From positions 1 to 64,000 of the forward strand of contig CAISTS010000011.1 in NCBI GenBank assembly GCA_903888485.1: a stretch of 64,000 bases of DNA. Direction: 5' to 3'. Shown one piece after another: positions 2,563 through 20,816 of the stretch. Position numbers and translations under genes: made by a program. The notes below the pieces were generated by a model that did no database searches, was not told where the DNA came from, and saw nothing but the letters and a program-made list of their open reading frames with translations. Within the stretch, counting starts at the first letter, position 1, and every line of letters starts with the position of its first letter. Source of the stretch: an uncultured bacterium (GTDB taxonomy: Bacteria; Pseudomonadota; Alphaproteobacteria; Rhodospirillales; Rhodospirillaceae).

Positions 2563-3459
2563 ATGGCTCAAGAAATCACGCTATCTACAGCGACCCGTAC
2601 GAATCTGTTGTCGCTTCAGAACACCACCGGGCTGATCGGTAAGACGCAGGAGCGCCTTGCCACCGGCCTTAAGGTGAACAACGCCATCGATGACGCTCTC
2701 GCGTTCTTCCGTGCGCGTAACCTCAATAGCCGCGCCTCCGACTTGCAGGCGGTCAAAGATCAGATCTCCGGCGGTATCAGCATCATCCGCGCTGCAACCC
2801 AGGGCCTCGAGTCGATCGAGTCGGTCCTAAAGCAGATGAAGGCGCTTGCCCAGTCCGCCGTGTCCGCTCCGGAAAGTTCGACGCGCGCCAAGCTCGCCAG
2901 TCAGTTCAACGAGCTGCGCAGTCAGGTCGATAACCTCGCCGAAGACTCGAGCTTCAACGGCGTGAACCTCCTGAAGACCGGCATCGGTGCCTTCCAGGCC
3001 GGCGCCGACTCGCTCACCGTCAAGTTCAACGAGCGCACGGAACAAGCCGCGATCAACCAGCTCGTGGTGAGCGGCCTCAAGGTCGCCGACTTCACGACGA
3101 TCATGGCACGTTCCGCTGTCGCCACCGGTGCTGCGGGTTCCAGCTCGGCGCTGTGGGGCCAGACGGGTGCTCAAGGCGTCAAAGCGATCACCAGTTCGAT
3201 CCGCGCCATCGACTCGGCGCTGGTCACTGTGCGCCAGACTTCCCAGGAATTCGGCAGCAACGCGTCGATGCTCTCGATCCGCGCCGAGTTCACCACCAAC
3301 ATCATCAACACGCTCAAGGCCGGCGCTGCCGATCTGGTCAACGCCGACATGAACGAAGAGTCAGCGAATCTACTCTCGCTGCAGACTCGCCAGCAGCTCG
3401 GTACGATCTCGCTCTCGATCGCGCAGCGTTCGGAGCAGTCGATCCTGCGTCTGTTCTAG
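2563..3459 (+). CDS. Flagellin 3
   Basis: Third filament subunit gene, 298 residues, starting MAQEITLSTATRTNL and ending QSILRLF. Closest to copies 1 and 4. The D0/D1 ends are almost unchanged, while residues around 135-225 vary. AAAGGGG at 2548-2554 precedes the ATG by eight bases. A preceding terminator (2332-2367), a following terminator (3485-3513) and its own leader suggest it is transcribed alone. Confidence 0.93.
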   Translation: MAQEITLSTATRTNLLSLQNTTGLIGKTQERLATGLKVNNAIDDALAFFRARNLNSRASDLQAVKDQISGGISIIRAATQGLESIESVLKQMKALAQSAVSAPESSTRAKLASQFNELRSQVDNLAEDSSFNGVNLLKTGIGAFQAGADSLTVKFNERTEQAAINQLVVSGLKVADFTTIMARSAVATGAAGSSSALWGQTGAQGVKAITSSIRAIDSALVTVRQTSQEFGSNASMLSIRAEFTTNIINTLKAGAADLVNADMNEESANLLSLQTRQQLGTISLSIAQRSEQSILRLF

Positions 3460-3663: not shown

Positions 3664-4557
3664 ATGGCTCAGGAAATCACACTCTCGACGGCGACGCGGA
3701 CGAATCTGCTTTCGCTGCAGAACACGACCAGCCTGATCGGGCGCACGCAAGAGCGCTTGGCGACGGGCCTCAAGGTCAACAGCGCCATCGACGATGCGCT
3801 TGCCTTCTTCAAGGCTCGCAACCTCAACAGCCGCGCCAGCGACTTGCAGAGCATCAAGGACGAAATCACCGGCGGCATCAACATCATCAAAGCTGCGGTG
3901 CAGGGCCTCGAGTCGATCGAGAACCTGCTCAAGCAGATGAAGGCGCTCGCGCAGTCCGCGGTCTCCGCGCCGGAAAGCATCACGCGCGCCAAGCTCGCCA
4001 GCCAGTTCAACGAACTGCGCAGCCAGGTCGACAACCTCGCTGAAGACTCAAGCTTCAACGGCGTCAACCTGCTCAAGAACAATACCTCGGCGTTCCTGCC
4101 GGGCGCCGATTCGCTCACCGTCAAGTTCAACGAGCGCACCGAGAACTCGGCCATCAACCAGCTCGTTATCAGCGGCCTGAAAGCCGGCGATTTCACGACC
4201 ATGATGGGCCGCTCGGCCGTCGCCACCGGCACGCCGGGCACGGCTGGCCTCTGGGGCCAGACGGGCGCGCAAGGCATCAAGGCGATCAACTCGGCTCTCC
4301 GCGCGATTGACTCGGCGCTCTCGACCGTGCGCCAAGCCGCGCAGAGCTTCGGCACCAATTCCTCGCTTCTGCAAATTCGCGCCGACTTCACCACACGCAT
4401 CATCAACACCCTGAAGGGTGGCGCGGCGGATCTGGTGAACGCCGACATGAACGAAGAATCGGCCAACCTGCTGTCGCTGCAGACGCGCCAGCAGCTGGGA
4501 ACGATTTCGCTGTCCATCGCCCAGAAGTCGGAAGAAGCGATCCTCAGGCTCTTCTAG
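3664..4557 (+). CDS. Flagellin 4
   Basis: Fourth filament subunit gene, 297 residues, starting like flagellin 3 and ending EEAILRLF, so the last helix differs slightly from the QSILRLF of the others. GAGG at 3652-3655 is the likely ribosome binding site. The following 241 bases (4558-4798) show no clear terminator and no gene I can support; they probably hold the flbT promoter. Confidence 0.93.
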   Translation: MAQEITLSTATRTNLLSLQNTTSLIGRTQERLATGLKVNSAIDDALAFFKARNLNSRASDLQSIKDEITGGINIIKAAVQGLESIENLLKQMKALAQSAVSAPESITRAKLASQFNELRSQVDNLAEDSSFNGVNLLKNNTSAFLPGADSLTVKFNERTENSAINQLVISGLKAGDFTTMMGRSAVATGTPGTAGLWGQTGAQGIKAINSALRAIDSALSTVRQAAQSFGTNSSLLQIRADFTTRIINTLKGGAADLVNADMNEESANLLSLQTRQQLGTISLSIAQKSEEAILRLF

Positions 4558-4798: not shown

Positions 4799-5197
4799 AT
4801 GCCGCTTAAATTAACCCTAAAGCCCAACGAGAAGGTTCTGATCGGCACTTCGGTCATTGCCAATGGGCCGGCCAAGACCGAATTCGTGGTGCTGAACCGG
4901 GTTCCCGTGGTGCGGGAAAAGGACATCATCACCGAAGAGAAGGCCGACACGATCGCCAAAAAGCTCTACGTGACGATCCTTAACATGTATATCAACCCTG
5001 CGCGGGAAAAGGATTATCACGGGATTTACTTCGTTTTAATGAGACAGATGATCTTAGTACCTATGGACGCCCGCGCCGTTGACCTAATGGTCGAGATGTC
5101 CCAGCATATTCTGGGGGCCGACCACTACCGGGCGCTCAAGCTGTGTCGTCAATTGATTAAGTACGAGGCGGAGGCCTTGGCGAATGTCAAAAGATAA
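4799..5197 (+). CDS. flbT: FlbT, flagellin translational regulator
   Basis: Small cytoplasmic regulator of 132 residues, typical for FlbT. In Caulobacter it represses flagellin synthesis by acting on the flagellin mRNA leader until hook assembly is complete; in some other alphaproteobacteria it acts positively. The N-terminal motif MPLKLTLKPNEKVLIG and the central block around KDIITEE fit the family. The last 14 bases overlap flaF, so the two are translationally coupled. Location after the flagellin array supports the role. Confidence 0.93.
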   Translation: MPLKLTLKPNEKVLIGTSVIANGPAKTEFVVLNRVPVVREKDIITEEKADTIAKKLYVTILNMYINPAREKDYHGIYFVLMRQMILVPMDARAVDLMVEMSQHILGADHYRALKLCRQLIKYEAEALANVKR

Positions 5198-5603
5198 AGT
5201 TGCTGCTTACGCGCAACAGCAAAAGCGCAACCTTTCGCCGCGCGAGGTCGAAGCCATGGCCTTCACGAAGGCCGCCGTGCTGCTTGAAGAAGCCAAGGGC
5301 AAGACCAACAGCATCGAGGAATATGCCAAGGCGCTGCGCTTCAACCATCTGCTCTGGACCATCATCCAAGCCGATCTGACCGAGCCTGAGAACCAGTTGC
5401 CGAACGAGATCAAGGCCAACATCATGTCCTTGAGCATCTTCGTCGACAAGCAGACCACCAAGGCGATGCGCACCAGCAACGCCGCCGATCTCGACGTGCT
5501 CATCAACATCAACCGCAACCTCGCTGCCGGCTTGCGCACCACGCCGCAAACGGCGGGCGCCGAGGCTCCGCGTCCGCAGCAGGCCGGCACGCAGTCCGCC
5601 TGA
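5184..5603 (+). CDS. flaF: FlaF, flagellin synthesis/secretion activator
   Basis: Partner of FlbT needed for flagellin production; in Caulobacter FlaF acts as a flagellin chaperone and activator. The 139-residue protein has the family core: AxxQQKRNLSPREVEAMAF at the N-terminus, then a helix with FNHLLWTIIQADL and the block PENQLPNEIKANIMSLSIFV. A Pro/Ala/Gln-rich tail (about 118-139) follows. A second FlaF-like gene lies at 20439-20792. Overlap with flbT indicates one operon. Confidence 0.92.
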   Translation: MSKDKVAAYAQQQKRNLSPREVEAMAFTKAAVLLEEAKGKTNSIEEYAKALRFNHLLWTIIQADLTEPENQLPNEIKANIMSLSIFVDKQTTKAMRTSNAADLDVLININRNLAAGLRTTPQTAGAEAPRPQQAGTQSA

Positions 5604-5615
5604 CATTGATGGTGT

Positions 5616-8459
5616 ATGATGGCGCCGCCGCCGTCCGGTGATGCGCCCATGCAAACCCAAAATTCCTCGGGCGACACCCGCGATCAGAACCGTCCGCTCT
5701 CGCCGCTCTTGCAGCAGGGCCTGAAGTTCCTCGAAGCCGGCGATGCCGCCGGCGCCGACCTCCTCCTCGATACTTATCTCGCGCGTAACGCTGGCGACGC
5801 CGACGGCCATAACCTGGCCGGGCTCACCAAGCGCCGTTTGGGCGCCCATGACGCGGCGCTGGACCACCTGCGCCGCGCCGTCGCGCTTAACGGCCGCGAG
5901 GCCCTCTACGCGATCAATCTGGCCCTGCTGCTCGATGAAATGGGCCGTGGCGACGAAGCCCTCGCGGCGCTCGATGCATTGCTGGTGGTGGTTCCCGGCC
6001 AGGCTGATGCTTTGATTCAGCGTGCGGCCCTCTTGCGCCGCATGGGCCGCTTCGACGAAGCGGTCGCCATTGCGCGCATGGCCGTGGCTTTCCATCGCGG
6101 TCTTGCCGCCGCCCACCATGCCCTCGGCACAGCGCTGATGAAGACCGGCGCGACCGCCGATGCCGTCGCGGCTTTCCGCGAGGCCAGCACGCGTGACCCG
6201 GCCGCCATCGAGACGTGGATCAACCTCGGCGTTGCGCTCAAGGAAGTGAATGACTTCACGGGCGCCGAGGACGCCTATACCCGCGCGCTCGCTCTCGCGC
6301 CGGACGATCCGGTGATCCACAACAACCTCGCCAATACCCTCGCGGCCGCCGGGCGCGGCGGCCACGCGCTTCTGCACTATCGGCGCGCGGTCGAGCTGGA
6401 TTCGGCATATGCCGACGCCAAGGCCAACCTGGGCCTTGCCTTGCGTGACAGCGGCGACATCCCCGGCGCGCTCGATTTCCTGGCGAAGGCTGTGACCGAT
6501 CACCCCGGCCATGGGGTTCTGCTCAATGCTTACGGCAATACCCTGCGCCAGGCCGAGCGCTACGATGATGCTATCGTTGCTCTGCAGCAGGCCATCGCGG
6601 CGTCGCCCACCTACGCTGAGGCGCACAACAACCTCGGTCTTGCCTACGCTATCCGCAATCAGCTTGAGCCTGCCGCGGCGCATCTCAAGCGCGCCGCCGA
6701 GCTGCGGCCCGATATGGCGGTGATCAGCAACAACTACGGCGCGCTGCTGGTGCGCATGTTCCGTTTCGACGAAGCGGCCGTTGCGCTCGCCAACGCCGTT
6801 GCGCGCCAGCCCGACTACGACGAGGCGCTGGTCAACCTCGGCGTTGCGCAGTACATGCTCGGCAATCCCAAGGAGGCCATCGCCGCCTACGAAGAGGTGC
6901 TGAAGCGCTCGCCAAACAACGGCTTTGCGCACTACAGCCTCGGGGTGACGTATCTCGAGGAGCAGCGGCTCGCCGAAGCCGAGATCGAAATCCGCCGCGC
7001 GCTCGAACTCGATCCCGGCAATCCCATGGCGCTCAACACCTTGGGCGTACTTCTGCTCGACCAGCATCATGTGACGGAAGCGCGCGAGAACATGCGCGTC
7101 GCGGCGGCGGCCAACACGCTGTCGGCTCCGGTGTTCTACAGCAACTATGCCTTTGCCTCCCTCTACGAACCGGGCATTTCCAATGCCGAGATTCTCGAAA
7201 TCCATAAGGGGTACGGGCGGCGCTTCGCGAGCGAAAAGCCCGACCGCAGCAAACCGCACCGCAACGCGCGCGATCTCGAGCGCAGATTGCGCCTCGGATA
7301 TATGTCACCCGATTTCCGCGCCCATTCGGTGGCCTATTTCTTCGAAGCGCTGCTCGAAAAGCACGACCGCAAGCGGTTCGAGGTGATCCTCTACTCCGAT
7401 ACCACGCGCGAGGATGTGGTCACCAAGGCCATGCGCGCGGCCGCCGACCTGTGGGTCGACACCGCCGGGCTGACGACAGACGGTTTCGCGCGGCGCATCG
7501 CCGCGGACGGCGTCGATATCCTGGTTAATCTGGGCGGTCACACCTCGGGCAATCGCCTGCCGGTATGCGCCCTCAAGCCCGCCCCGGTGCAGATCGAATA
7601 CTTGGGCTACCCCGATACCAGCGGGGTACCGGCCATGGATTGGCGCATCACCGACAACCATGCCGATCCCGCGCCGGAGGCCGACCGCTGGTGCACCGAG
7701 AAGCTGATCCGTCTGCCCCATGTTTTTCACTGCTATCGGCCTGCCGGCAGGCCACCCACGCCGGCGCCCGCGCCGCATCCGGCGAAGGGTTTTGTGACCT
7801 TCGCATCGTTCAACGTGCTGCCGAAGGTCACGCACGAGGCGATTTCCGCTTGGGCCAAGATCCTAAATGCCGTGCCGGGCTCGCGCTTTTTCATCAAGTG
7901 CAAACAGCTGCGCGACGAGCGCGTGCAGGAGCGCATCCGCGCCGAGTTCGCCGCCGCCGGCGTCGATCCCGCGCGTGTCGATATGGCGGCTTTCGTGCCT
8001 TCGATCCGCGAGCACCTGGAGCGCTATGGCGAGGTCGACCTGGCGCTCGACACTTTCCCCTATAACGGCACGACGACGACCTGCGAGTCCATATATATGG
8101 GTGTGCCGGTACTGAGCCTGCGCGGGAACAATCACCGCGGCCGTGTCGGCCTTAGCCTCTTGTCCGCCATGGGGCTGGACAAGGAATTCATCGCCGAGAG
8201 CGTCGATGACTATATTGCCCGCGCGATTGCATTCGGCCGTAACCCGGAACGCCTGGCCGAGATCAGGTCGGAGCTGCGCCCCCGTATGGAGCGCTCGGCT
8301 CTCCGTGACGAAGTGGGCTTCACGCGCGACCTTGAAGCGGCCTACCGTAGCGCCTGGTGCAGCTGGTGCGCCGGCCCCGAGACCACCATGTTCAAGCCGC
8401 CGCCCGAGCTCCGGCCCGAGGACTCCATCCAAGGCGTGCTCGTGAAGGCGCTCTCGTGA
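5616..8459 (+). CDS. TPR + GT41 glycosyltransferase, candidate flagellin O-glycosyltransferase
   Basis: Large cytoplasmic enzyme (947 residues). About 15-530 is an array of TPR repeats (many AxxNLGxAL-type helices); about 555-930 is a SPINDLY/OGT-type GT41 domain. Visible landmarks are SPDFRAHSVAYFF with the His used by OGT-type enzymes, NLGGHTSGNRLPV, and DTFPYNGTTTTCES, which contributes to nucleotide-sugar binding. It starts 12 bases after flaF and overlaps the next glycosyltransferase, so it is probably in the flbT-flaF unit. The natural inference is Ser/Thr modification of the flagellins, with TPRs reading the substrate, as for TPR-bearing FlmG of Caulobacter. Donor sugar unknown. Possible starts are 5616, 5619 and 5649. 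Confidence 0.85.
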   Translation: MMAPPPSGDAPMQTQNSSGDTRDQNRPLSPLLQQGLKFLEAGDAAGADLLLDTYLARNAGDADGHNLAGLTKRRLGAHDAALDHLRRAVALNGREALYAINLALLLDEMGRGDEALAALDALLVVVPGQADALIQRAALLRRMGRFDEAVAIARMAVAFHRGLAAAHHALGTALMKTGATADAVAAFREASTRDPAAIETWINLGVALKEVNDFTGAEDAYTRALALAPDDPVIHNNLANTLAAAGRGGHALLHYRRAVELDSAYADAKANLGLALRDSGDIPGALDFLAKAVTDHPGHGVLLNAYGNTLRQAERYDDAIVALQQAIAASPTYAEAHNNLGLAYAIRNQLEPAAAHLKRAAELRPDMAVISNNYGALLVRMFRFDEAAVALANAVARQPDYDEALVNLGVAQYMLGNPKEAIAAYEEVLKRSPNNGFAHYSLGVTYLEEQRLAEAEIEIRRALELDPGNPMALNTLGVLLLDQHHVTEARENMRVAAAANTLSAPVFYSNYAFASLYEPGISNAEILEIHKGYGRRFASEKPDRSKPHRNARDLERRLRLGYMSPDFRAHSVAYFFEALLEKHDRKRFEVILYSDTTREDVVTKAMRAAADLWVDTAGLTTDGFARRIAADGVDILVNLGGHTSGNRLPVCALKPAPVQIEYLGYPDTSGVPAMDWRITDNHADPAPEADRWCTEKLIRLPHVFHCYRPAGRPPTPAPAPHPAKGFVTFASFNVLPKVTHEAISAWAKILNAVPGSRFFIKCKQLRDERVQERIRAEFAAAGVDPARVDMAAFVPSIREHLERYGEVDLALDTFPYNGTTTTCESIYMGVPVLSLRGNNHRGRVGLSLLSAMGLDKEFIAESVDDYIARAIAFGRNPERLAEIRSELRPRMERSALRDEVGFTRDLEAAYRSAWCSWCAGPETTMFKPPPELRPEDSIQGVLVKALS

Positions 8460-10300
8460 CGGACAGTCGTTTCACACTCGCGCTCAAGTACTATGAATCC
8501 GGGCTTCCCAAGGAAGCCTGGGAAGCGGTGCGCGAGATCATCACCCAGCCCGACCCGCCGCTCGAGGCTTTGCGCCTGGCCGCCGCGTTGCGGCTCGAGG
8601 AGCAGGTCTATATTGATGCGGTCGCCTTCTCCAATCAGACCCTCGCGCGCGATCCCGAGAACGTTCCGGCATTGCTGACTAAGGCGCAGGCGCTGTTCCA
8701 AGTAGGTGTGCCGAGCGACGGCGAAACAGTGATGAATGCGGCGCTCGCGCTGCCCGGACAGCATCCGGCGGGGTGGAACAACCTCGGCAATGTCCTCGAT
8801 GCCCTCGGTAAGCCGGAACATGCGCGCCAGGCCTTTGCGCGAGCGCTCGAAGAAGCGCCGGGCTTCAGCATCGCGCACAATAATCTCGGCGCAACGCTCG
8901 CGGCGCAGGGCCACTACGCCGCGGCGGCGGAGTCCTATAACAAGGCTCTTACCGCCGAGTCGGGCAACCTCGCGGCTATGAACAATCTCGGCGTCGCACT
9001 GCTGGAGCAGGGGCTGACGCAAGAGGCCGGCGCTGTCTTTGACAAGTTGCTGGCGGCCGATCCCGGTAACTCCGACGCGGCCAGTAACGGCCTGTACGCG
9101 CGCCTTTATGCCGACGACGATCCGGCCGGCGCGCGTGCGGCCCATAGCGCGTGGGGCAAGCGGCAACCCGCGCCGCCCGTTCAGCAGGAGGCGCGCAGGC
9201 CCGGACCCCTGCGCGTCGGATACATTTCACCCGACTTCCGCCGCCATTCGGTCAGCTACTTCGCGGTACCGCTGCTCGAAGGGCACGACCCCAAGGCGGT
9301 GGAGATCTTCTGTTACTCCGATGCCGCCCGCACGGACGCGGTCACGGCGCGACTGCAGGCGGTTGTGCATCATTGGCGCGACATCTCGGGCCATAGCGAT
9401 AGCGAAATCTTTCAGCTCATCCGTGGGGATGGGCTCGACATTCTGGTCGATCTCGCCGGCCACACGACCGGCAATCGTCTGGGCGTGTTCGCGCGCCGCG
9501 CCGCGCCGGTGCAGGTGACGGCCATCGGCTATCCCGCCACGACCGGCTTGCCCGCCATGGACTTCCGTTTGTGCGACGCCATCACCGATCCGGCCCCCAC
9601 GGCCGATGCCTGGGCCAGCGAAACCCTGGTGCGCCTGCCGCACTTGCATTGTTACGACCCGCTCATCGAGATGCCGCTGCCCGGGCCACTACCTGCGCTG
9701 ACGGCGGGGCACATCACCTTTGGCTCCTTCAACAAGCTCGCGAAGCTCTCCCCGGCGACGGTGGCGTTGTGGGCCGGAGTGCTAAAAGCCGTGCCGGGCG
9801 CGCGCCTGATTGTCAAAGCCAAGGCGCTGGCCGACCTCGACACGCGGGTGCGCCTGGCTAAGGCGTTCGGCAGCCATGGTGTCGCGCCCGAACGCTTCGA
9901 CCTGCGCGGCTGGATGCCTGGCAACAAGGGACACCTCGACCTCTACAACCGCATCGACATCGCGCTCGATACGTTTCCCTACAACGGCACGACCACCACC
10001 TGCGAAGCTCTGTGGATGGGCGTGCCGGTGCTCAGCCTGTGCGGGCGCGGCCATGCGGCGCGCGTGGGAGCGAGCTTGCTGGGGCAGGCGGGACTTGCGG
10101 ATTGGATCGTGCGGCAGCCGGACCAATTTGTACCGCGTGCCGTGCGGTTTGCCGGTGACCTGCCAGCCCTCGCAGCGCTGCGCCAGGAACTGCGGGTGCA
10201 GGTGCAGACCTCCTCGCTCTGCGACAAGCAGGGCTATGCGCGCGCGGTGGAAGCCGCGTACCGCGTCATGACTCAGCGCGCCGACTCCGCTCAGCAATAG
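8456..10300 (+). CDS. Second TPR + GT41 glycosyltransferase
   Basis: Paralogue of the preceding enzyme with a shorter TPR region. From the GTG at 8456 it has 614 residues: TPRs to about 240, then the GT41 domain with SPDFRRHSVSYF, DLAGHTTGNRLGV and DTFPYNGTTTTCEALW (about residue 504). I choose the GTG because it overlaps the upstream stop as GTGA; the longer frame from 8357 lies inside the previous gene. Two linked GT41 enzymes suggest either two flagellin sites or two substrates. It converges with flgL, with 3 bases between stop codons. Confidence 0.85.
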   Translation: MTDSRFTLALKYYESGLPKEAWEAVREIITQPDPPLEALRLAAALRLEEQVYIDAVAFSNQTLARDPENVPALLTKAQALFQVGVPSDGETVMNAALALPGQHPAGWNNLGNVLDALGKPEHARQAFARALEEAPGFSIAHNNLGATLAAQGHYAAAAESYNKALTAESGNLAAMNNLGVALLEQGLTQEAGAVFDKLLAADPGNSDAASNGLYARLYADDDPAGARAAHSAWGKRQPAPPVQQEARRPGPLRVGYISPDFRRHSVSYFAVPLLEGHDPKAVEIFCYSDAARTDAVTARLQAVVHHWRDISGHSDSEIFQLIRGDGLDILVDLAGHTTGNRLGVFARRAAPVQVTAIGYPATTGLPAMDFRLCDAITDPAPTADAWASETLVRLPHLHCYDPLIEMPLPGPLPALTAGHITFGSFNKLAKLSPATVALWAGVLKAVPGARLIVKAKALADLDTRVRLAKAFGSHGVAPERFDLRGWMPGNKGHLDLYNRIDIALDTFPYNGTTTTCEALWMGVPVLSLCGRGHAARVGASLLGQAGLADWIVRQPDQFVPRAVRFAGDLPALAALRQELRVQVQTSSLCDKQGYARAVEAAYRVMTQRADSAQQ

Positions 10301-20438: not shown

Positions 20439-20792
20439 TTAGCGGCTGGTGCGCTTGTCGAGCAGGCCTTCGGAGATCTGCAGGTTGGTGTTGGTCAACG
20501 CTTCGATCGTCTTGGCGTTGGCGCCGTTCTGCATTTCGAAGGTCTTCTGCGCGACGAAGCTCGACAGGCGGATCAAGTTATCCTTGATCACCAGCGGCAA
20601 CGGGTTTTCCGGAGCGGAGACCAGGGTGCGGATACCGACCCACAGTCTCAAATTCCGATCCAAGGCAGCGGCGAGCCGCTTTTCGTCCTTGGATTCAAAC
20701 GCGCGGCTGATTTCCAGGGCGGCCTGGGTCAGCGCGAGGGCGTCTTCCTCAAATACTGTCAGCGTTGAGGGCGCTGTGCTCATCATGTTCAT
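20439..20792 (-). CDS. FlaF-like paralogue
   Basis: 117 residues from ATG 20792, with GAGGGG nine bases upstream. It shares the FlaF core: NLRLWVGIRTLVSAPENPLP, IKDNLIRLSSFVAQKT and a helix with TIEALTNTNLQISEGL, closely parallel to FLAF at 5184 (PENQLP, IKANIMSLSIFVDKQT, INRNLAAGL). Probably a second flagellin chaperone or activator, or specific for one flagellin or another exported protein. It stands alone, convergent with dksA, downstream of the flgH terminator. Confidence 0.75.
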   Translation of the reverse strand: MNMMSTAPSTLTVFEEDALALTQAALEISRAFESKDEKRLAAALDRNLRLWVGIRTLVSAPENPLPLVIKDNLIRLSSFVAQKTFEMQNGANAKTIEALTNTNLQISEGLLDKRTSR

Positions 20793-20816
20793 CCGTATAT
20801 TCCCCTCTGTTGTCAT

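Follow-up and report, generated by a model that had tools for sequence, protein, structure and literature searches.

The window analysed here is a stretch of 64,000 nucleotides from an uncultured bacterium of the Rhodospirillaceae, in which four flagellin genes, flbT and flaF precede two glycosyltransferase genes, GT1 and GT2, all on the forward strand; the sugar donor and the protein acceptor of GT1 and GT2 are the subject of this analysis. The flagellin genes lie at 314-1204 (296 amino acids; open reading frame (ORF) with Pfam Flagellin_N/C, a presumed acceptor), 1399-2301 (300 amino acids), 2563-3459 (an ORF of 298 amino acids) and 3664-4557 (297 amino acids). With the third as phmmer query, the other three are matched. 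The flagellin regulator gene flbT (4799-5197; Pfam FlbT, 1.4e-36) overlaps the flagellin chaperone/regulator gene flaF (5184-5603; Pfam FlaF, 4.2e-32) by 14 bases, and a gap of 12 base pairs (bp) separates flaF from GT1 (5616-8459, 947 amino acids). GT2 (8456-10300, 614 amino acids) overlaps the GT1 stop by 4 bp; its listed ORF spans 8357-10300, but as 8357 falls within GT1, the GTG at 8456 was taken as the probable start. Both glycosyltransferase ORFs are intact. No sigma-54- or sigma-28-like pattern was matched in the upstream stretches (200 bp or less) of eight genes, a sigma-70 scan returned 0 promoter-like sites (mean of 1.2 in shuffled sequences), and a terminator scan returned four terminator-like sites, all on the minus strand and with a mean of 4.4 in shuffles, which lends no support. 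As no such signal was found, it is from gene spacing that we infer flbT-flaF-GT1-GT2 to form one putative transcription unit in the source genome.

GT1 and GT2 combine tetratricopeptide repeats (TPRs) with a catalytic domain of the Glyco_transf_41 profile PF13844, which scores 177.9 bits (3.3e-52) for GT1 and 161.7 bits (2.6e-47) for GT2 against a curated cut-off of 25 bits, placing both in family GT41. In the AlphaFold2 model of GT1, the confident part is a TPR superhelix of 30 helices (5703-7226, residues 30-537), or about 15 TPRs. In GT2, Pfam finds the best TPR stretches at residues 92-216 and weaker ones from residue 3 on, for an estimated six or so repeats. The preliminary description of this locus, which had placed two TPR-GT41 genes of different TPR length behind flbT-flaF and four flagellins, is thus confirmed in both respects. 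The repeats are rich in asparagine (e.g., NNLAN, NNLGL and NNYGA in GT1; NNLGN, NNLGA and NNLGV in GT2), which fits the asparagine ladder by which the Arabidopsis enzyme SPINDLY (SPY) binds the peptide backbone, as described in PMC9715652. The catalytic domain of GT1 covers 7284-8390 (residues 557-925, from the range of the profile hidden Markov model (HMM) and the alignment to Arabidopsis SPY, AtSPY) and that of GT2 9101-10297. The C-terminal tail of GT1, LRPEDSIQGVLVK (8409-8447, residues 932-944), is conserved, with one substitution in one of eight aligned orthologues; it is kept also where GT2 does not overlap, and our guess is that it could be a docking element.

The donor pocket points towards SPY. 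In a phmmer search against the PDB, SPY ranks first for GT1 (3.5e-126) and for the catalytic region of GT2 (6.8e-90), followed by TtOGT, animal OGT and XcOGT. Passages of PMC9715652 and PMC10027727 describe SPY as a protein O-fucosyltransferase using guanosine diphosphate (GDP)-fucose, in which, according to the latter, K689 contacts the guanine, Y744 the fucose, and T748 and E752 the ribose. Ten AtSPY residues (H495, S496, V497, K665, K689, H728, Y744, T747, T748 and E752) recur unchanged in the alignment, as H570, S571, V572, K737, K761, H800, Y816, T819, T820 and E824 in GT1 and as H264, S265, V266, K430, K454, H493, Y509, T512, T513 and E517 in GT2. K689 thus corresponds to K761 and K454, and Y744 to Y816 and Y509. 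All eight aligned GT1 rows retain K689, Y744, T747, T748 and E752. Several observations weigh against a straightforward equation with SPY. A731 is replaced by R803 in GT1, as in human OGT (R904), and by L496 in GT2, and N662 by V and K, respectively; GT1 further differs by I592 to L. Position 731 reads R, Y, Y, H, R, Q, C and K across the eight GT1 rows. PMC10027727 separates SPY from OGT by K689, A731 and Y744 versus L866, R904 and C917. By this three-residue signature the pair scores two out of three, a mixed pattern resembling the 'intermediate' group of that paper, while the OGT/SEC-like pattern is not found either: the pair carries K, R or L, and Y, with the equivalent of R904 in GT1 only. 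Because of the A731 mismatch, we call the pair SPY-type in the pocket rather than members of the SPY-like clan.

A donor of this kind could be supplied. The source genome contains adjacent gmd (613 bits, cut-off 415) and fcl-like genes (L066:2113-4145; labels in G, L and C denote genomes, loci and contigs of our sample); the second is named fcl from where it lies and from scores of 447-454 bits against annotated GDP-L-fucose synthases. In a sample of 18 same-genus genomes plus the source genome (G000), gmd occurs in 19 out of 19, once cut at a contig end. As it is present in every genus member, flagellated or not and with or without GT1, this finding is necessary but unspecific. Outside the genus, a GDP-L-fucose synthase lies at most 8 kb from a SPY-type GT41 in five of nine distinct plasmid loci of Azospirillum and Niveispirillum (Azospirillaceae; L088, L089, L252 and L254 by sequence and annotation, L272 by annotation) versus none of 15 fetched loci without a SPY-type gene, some of which overlap or share plasmids (Fisher 0.003, descriptive only as relatedness is ignored). 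All five are, however, on rep_cluster_1806 plasmids and hence not independent, and L252 holds non-SPY GT41s near the same fcl; the association may be one lineage's habit. In the same order as the window, G021 encodes a SPY-type-like GT41 (with A for T748) at a distance of about 1.7 kb from fcl, where gmd is located too, but the stretches fetched around two further such GT41s of this genome contain no fcl, so that one of three stretches has it. Among 12 genomes of other families that were checked, gmd exceeds the cut-off in four and NeuB, an enzyme of the nonulosonate pathway, is present in nine. The two of these 12 that have a flaF-linked SPY-type GT41 pull in opposite directions: G216 has gmd and no NeuB was found in it, which fits a GDP-fucose donor, whereas G139 has NeuB and a gmd-like match of only 299 bits. 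A SPY-type pair using another GDP-sugar, such as GDP-mannose, GDP-rhamnose or GDP-4-keto-6-deoxymannose, would explain the retained guanine lysine together with the changes at A731 and N662 and the low gmd score of G139. We consider this unlikely, as the pair also retains S496, Y744 and T747, which contact the fucose, and some close relatives adjoin fcl.

The preliminary description had also called the presumed modification O-GlcNAc-like, i.e., with uridine diphosphate (UDP)-N-acetylglucosamine (GlcNAc) as donor. Membership of GT41 and the arginine of GT1 at the position of OGT R904 speak for this reading. At the positions of SPY 689, 744, 747 and 752, however, human OGT carries L, C, H and D, while GT1 and GT2 have K, Y, T and E. 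The tyrosine at 744 is argued to narrow the donor site in PMC9715652, which also notes a tyrosine there in XcOGT; it is present in TtOGT and in 14 of the other 18 GT41s of the source genome too, and therefore weakly telling alone. These 18 accompany the pair in a 3.49-Mb genome with 20 GT41 genes in total, are mostly OGT-type and are spread over contigs C10, C14, C19, C22, C26, C28, C32, C46, C48, C55, C66 and C80 (L054-L066), four of them on C66. They are OGT-like at R731 (n = 15), H747 (n = 13) and D752 (n = 16), whereas K689 occurs in one, E752 in two, and T747 and the full SPY set in none. The sole K689 carrier (L065:1915) otherwise has A, Y, G and E; the second with E752 (L066:13700) reads N, Q, Y, G and E.

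Phylogeny agrees less firmly. In a tree of 68 catalytic domains, made with a quick method and with some rows left out, an OGT side (human OGT and 28 further rows, 29 in total) separates with a support of 99, and GT1, GT2 and AtSPY are all found on the other side. Yet the node uniting SPY with the pair is supported by only 80, and TtOGT and mixed-pattern proteins fall under it as well; one SPY-type row (L123) lies outside. GT1 and GT2 are not sisters, GT2 being nearer to a protein of G139 and to Azospirillaceae proteins. The fold comparison is limited to GT2, since the full-length AlphaFold2 model of GT1 (mean predicted local distance difference test (pLDDT) of 67.3) is good in the TPR part and unusable in the catalytic part. 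The modelled catalytic region of GT2 (pLDDT 92.1, from 42 sequences) retrieves SPY first in Foldseek (E 6e-40, template modelling (TM) score 0.89, root-mean-square deviation (rmsd) 1.1), above TtOGT, XcOGT and human OGT; Foldseek lists only ranked folds, so that the absence of other folds proves nothing. VIA-align gives a Z of 52.6 for SPY (rmsd 3.9, 391 residues aligned), 48.4 for TtOGT (2.3, 378), 43.5 for XcOGT (3.4, 384) and 36.0 for human OGT (3.0, 378); the GDP-fucose-bound SPY entry, at 46.5 (2.3, 383), ranks below TtOGT, and fold likeness to SPY does not show the donor. Taken with the pocket residues and the best PDB match, the fold and, less firmly, the tree place both enzymes nearer SPY, so the O-GlcNAc part of the preliminary description is unsupported and we rate such transferases on flagellin as quite improbable.

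Turning to the acceptor, the distribution of GT1 within the genus ties it to flaF. With orthologues defined as 70% or more identical across the catalytic region and the main flaF by an E below 1e-20, GT1 is present in nine and flaF in 11 of the 19 genomes, source included; GT1 occurs in nine of the 11 with the main flaF versus none of the eight without (Fisher 0.0007, again descriptive only and blind to relatedness). Four of these eight are only 71-90% complete, which limits this count. On a gmd gene tree with four of 18 branches well supported, GT1 presence and absence alternate repeatedly within the genus: six changes of the label are needed, and when the two outgroups are included, supported branches force three or more of them. 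The independent-pair test on this tree yields four usable pairs, concordant 2.9 times on average and never opposite, which is too few for significance. In addition to the main flaF, the window has a second, diverged FlaF-like ORF (20439-20816, minus strand, 60 bits), and a second FlaF is also seen in several relatives.

In all eight same-genus relatives with GT1, it follows flaF, and because of this recurrence the adjacency is not due to chance. The two are directly adjacent (0-180 bp) in G010, G012, G017 and G018; GT2 comes after GT1 in G002, G003, G010, G013 and G018, and in G007 the contig ends after GT1. The two flaF-positive genomes that lack GT1 both retain a remnant of it beside flaF. 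In G005 (L075:7497-9128), GT1 residues 6-503 are fused to a FliX-like end, apparently by a deletion, and the catalytic domain is gone; in G016 (L072:6399-6881), only residues 5-168 are left and flaF contains a TAG. An assembly error is possible in both. The association has its blemishes. A distance of 1.3-1.5 kb separates flaF from GT1 in the other four relatives (G002, G003, G007 and G013), GT2 is broken across frames behind GT1 in G017, and in G012 it is absent from the 1.9 kb searched after GT1, with a GT2-like gene on another contig. In G006 (79% complete), a GT2-like gene occurs even though no main flaF was detected. Moreover, no acceptor site was recognised: compared by eye, the flagellins of GT1-bearing and GT1-lacking genomes do not differ in this respect, although the flaF locus is broken in both flagellin-bearing genomes without GT1, which makes the comparison weak. 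The gap in G002 contains an ORF (L074:6711-7859, 382 amino acids) on the opposite strand, without a Pfam match at E 0.01; the gaps of the three other relatives are similar in size.

The flaF slot is occupied differently in other families of the order. Among 12 genomes sampled from the rest of the order, eight have a full-size match to the profile PF01973 (86-119 bits) of Maf, a flagellin glycosyltransferase. In seven of them (G020, G022, G024, G025, G026, G027 and G028) a flaF is no more than about 4 kb from it, and in G019 the distance is about 15 kb; the Maf_flag10_N domain was confirmed for two of these sister-family proteins. A TPR/GT41-like protein lies between FlaF and Maf in all seven sister-family loci fetched (L080:7485-9437, L081:7439-10048, L085:4257-6464, L279:6630-8672, L280:5539-7500, L281:7108-9045 and L282:1425-3419). 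PF13844 scores above its cut-off in six out of six of these tested, but the equivalents of SPY H495, K665 and Y744 are lost in all six checked (all but L281), residue calls that are less sure because strongly diverged proteins are aligned. Conversely, none of the 19 genomes of the window's genus has a full-size Maf. Five of them have a short PF01973 match only (frames of 288-358 amino acids, 46-58 bits), which is on another contig than flaF where flaF was found. The remaining four same-order genomes have no Maf, and no GT41 occurs in the flaF stretches fetched, which were those of G021 and G030 and not of G023 and G029. In this order sample, an intact GT41 pocket coincides with the absence of Maf, and a dead GT41 with a Maf next to flaF. 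Of the indirect evidence for a role of the slot in flagellin glycosylation, this pattern is the strongest, and the dead GT41 of the sister families is possibly a flagellin adaptor for Maf. A Maf-type reading of GT1 and GT2 themselves was lowered, since Pfam detects no Maf domain in either at E 0.001 and the domains are unrelated.

Across the class, 69 of the 192 genomes surveyed have FlaF, source included, and one flaF stretch was fetched from 60 of the 68 others. A strong GT41 (above 400 bits with a catalytic HMM built here) is found in 12 of these 60 stretches, two of which (L123, L127) are SPY-type by K689, Y744, T747 and E752, and a member of the FlmG-like family, judged by C-terminal similarity among 18 candidate proteins compared, in at least 13. 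A separate flaF-linked GT41 group from other alphaproteobacterial families (L094, L101, L103, L106 and L107; 980-1071 amino acids, one of 1358) has H744, G747 and V748 or A748, and perhaps uses a different donor. On plasmids of A. thermophilum and A. oryzae (Azospirillum; L258, L260), a GT9 gene and an annotated FlaF are found in the vicinity of a TPR protein that gives a GT41-like match.

FlmG was examined as the nearest positional counterpart. The best 80 loci of a scan for the FlmG-like family include one of Caulobacter vibrioides (L227:5821-7611), which encodes 596 amino acids in an orientation diverging from flbT-flaF and the flagellins; the next gene codes for a GNAT acetyltransferase, the protein class of FlmH. 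Its length, divergent position and the following GNAT gene fit the 596-residue FlmG and the flmGH operon given in PMC7591256, and on these grounds it was named FlmG; the same source describes FlmG as the flagellin TPR transferase of Caulobacter for pseudaminic acid. L227:5821-7611 has TPR matches only in Pfam and none to PF13844 at E 0.01, the GT41 catalytic HMM matched none of the best 80 FlmG-like loci, and an hhalign comparison of the FlmG-like family with the GT41 catalytic domain returned a probability of 1.3. The C. vibrioides control genome does contain a PF13844 match somewhere, in a gene that was not located. As its catalytic domain is not GT41, FlmG was rejected as the identity of GT1 and GT2 despite the same genomic position.

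GT1 and GT2 might nonetheless work like FlmG, as transferases of nonulosonic acids (pseudaminic or legionaminic) from cytidine monophosphate (CMP)-sugars. The shared place beside flbT-flaF, the combination of TPRs with a GT-B fold, the two NeuB genes of the source genome and the frequency of NeuB in the other-family genomes are in line with this. The source NeuB genes lie in a nonulosonic acid-type cluster with a CBS-aminotransferase fusion (L056, G000:C10:1-14000), the existence of which also counts against GDP-fucose as the evident donor; its product may be destined for a different surface structure. However, the FlmG of C. vibrioides is unrelated by domain, G216 does without a detectable NeuB, and a strong NeuB is found in only five of the nine GT1 genomes (G000, G002, G003, G007 and G013). 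In the other four it is weak (G010, 99% complete, a frame of 626 amino acids), a fragment (G012) or not found (G017, 76% complete; G018, 89% complete). We regard CMP-sugar use as improbable. That the enzymes modify other proteins, or that GT1 is mainly a TPR scaffold whose flagellin linkage is incidental, is highly improbable, since the window pair keeps the tested catalytic residues and GT1 is retained solely in genomes with the main flaF, even if the slot relatives of the sister families, which lack catalytic residues, may be scaffolds.

Judged from sequence, the explanation that we lean towards, by a little over even odds, is that GT1 and GT2 would jointly O-glycosylate flagellin in the cytoplasm from a GDP-sugar, most likely GDP-fucose. 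Its parts differ in strength. Gene order, the co-occurrence of GT1 and flaF, the remnants and the Maf in the slot of the sister families make flagellin very probably the acceptor, and the proposal that these are flagellin-modifying GT41s, already made in the preliminary description, gains from this gene order, from the loss together with the flaF locus and from the sister-family Maf. A GDP-sugar is a probable donor, while for fucose specifically the chances are about even. In such a mechanism, the two soluble enzymes would act before export: unfolded flagellin would be threaded along the TPR groove, its segments captured via the asparagine ladder, and Ser/Thr residues glycosylated before or during FlaF-assisted export, with the SPINDLY-type catalytic domains transferring one sugar from a GDP-sugar, most likely L-fucose from GDP-L-fucose supplied by the gmd-fcl pair of the source genome. 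The two enzymes may serve different flagellins or different sites, add a second sugar or form a heterodimer; given that no flagellin pattern was seen and that the tree does not pair GT1 with GT2, a heterodimer or sugars added in sequence are as likely as the division of flagellins suggested in the preliminary description. The pair would then fill the role of Maf at the same locus in the sister families and of the unrelated FlmG in Caulobacter. More speculatively, and with odds that we place clearly below even, a SPINDLY-type O-fucosylation system dedicated to flagellin could have replaced Maf and nonulosonate at flbT-flaF here, with the dead GT41-TPR protein of the sister families presenting flagellin to Maf, so that one scaffold would be used both as enzyme and as adaptor.

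A bacterial SPY-type pair with an obvious candidate acceptor makes the donor question (fucose, GlcNAc or nonulosonate) testable. More broadly, the flbT-flaF neighbourhood appears to be a swap site for FlmG, for Maf with a dead GT41, and for SPY-type GT41s with an intact pocket, which bears on the evolution of flagellin glycosylation specificity. Among the known systems, SPINDLY shares the TPR-GT41 architecture, the ten AtSPY residues and the best PDB match with GT1 and GT2, which in turn are bacterial, stand beside flagellin genes, carry R or L for A731 and V or K for N662, and have a donor proposed by analogy. Human and animal OGT and XcOGT share the GT41 fold with GT2, with human OGT deviating at the four pocket positions given above. 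Maf likewise occupies the flaF locus, but with unrelated domains (Maf_flag10_N, MptE-like). FlmG resembles the pair in its location beside flbT-flaF, its N-terminal TPR domain, its length of about 600 amino acids (as GT2) and its presumed task, and differs by the non-GT41 catalytic domain and by transcription divergent from flbT. SPY-like genes occur in bacteria and very few have been characterised, according to PMC10027727. GT41s at flagellin loci were predicted earlier in Enterobacteriaceae: PMC4875605, compared by description only, labels those of the flagellin glycosylation islands COG3914 SPINDLY, suggests that GlcNAc derivatives are added and reports methyltransferase domains for most. 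No report of flagellin O-fucosylation by a SPY-type enzyme was found in the open-licence literature, judged by titles and abstract openings. The kind of system is thus already known, from GT41s at flagellin loci and from the TPR transferase FlmG beside flbT-flaF; what is new here is that the pocket is SPY-type, that Maf is absent, and that the sister families have a dead GT41 next to their Maf.

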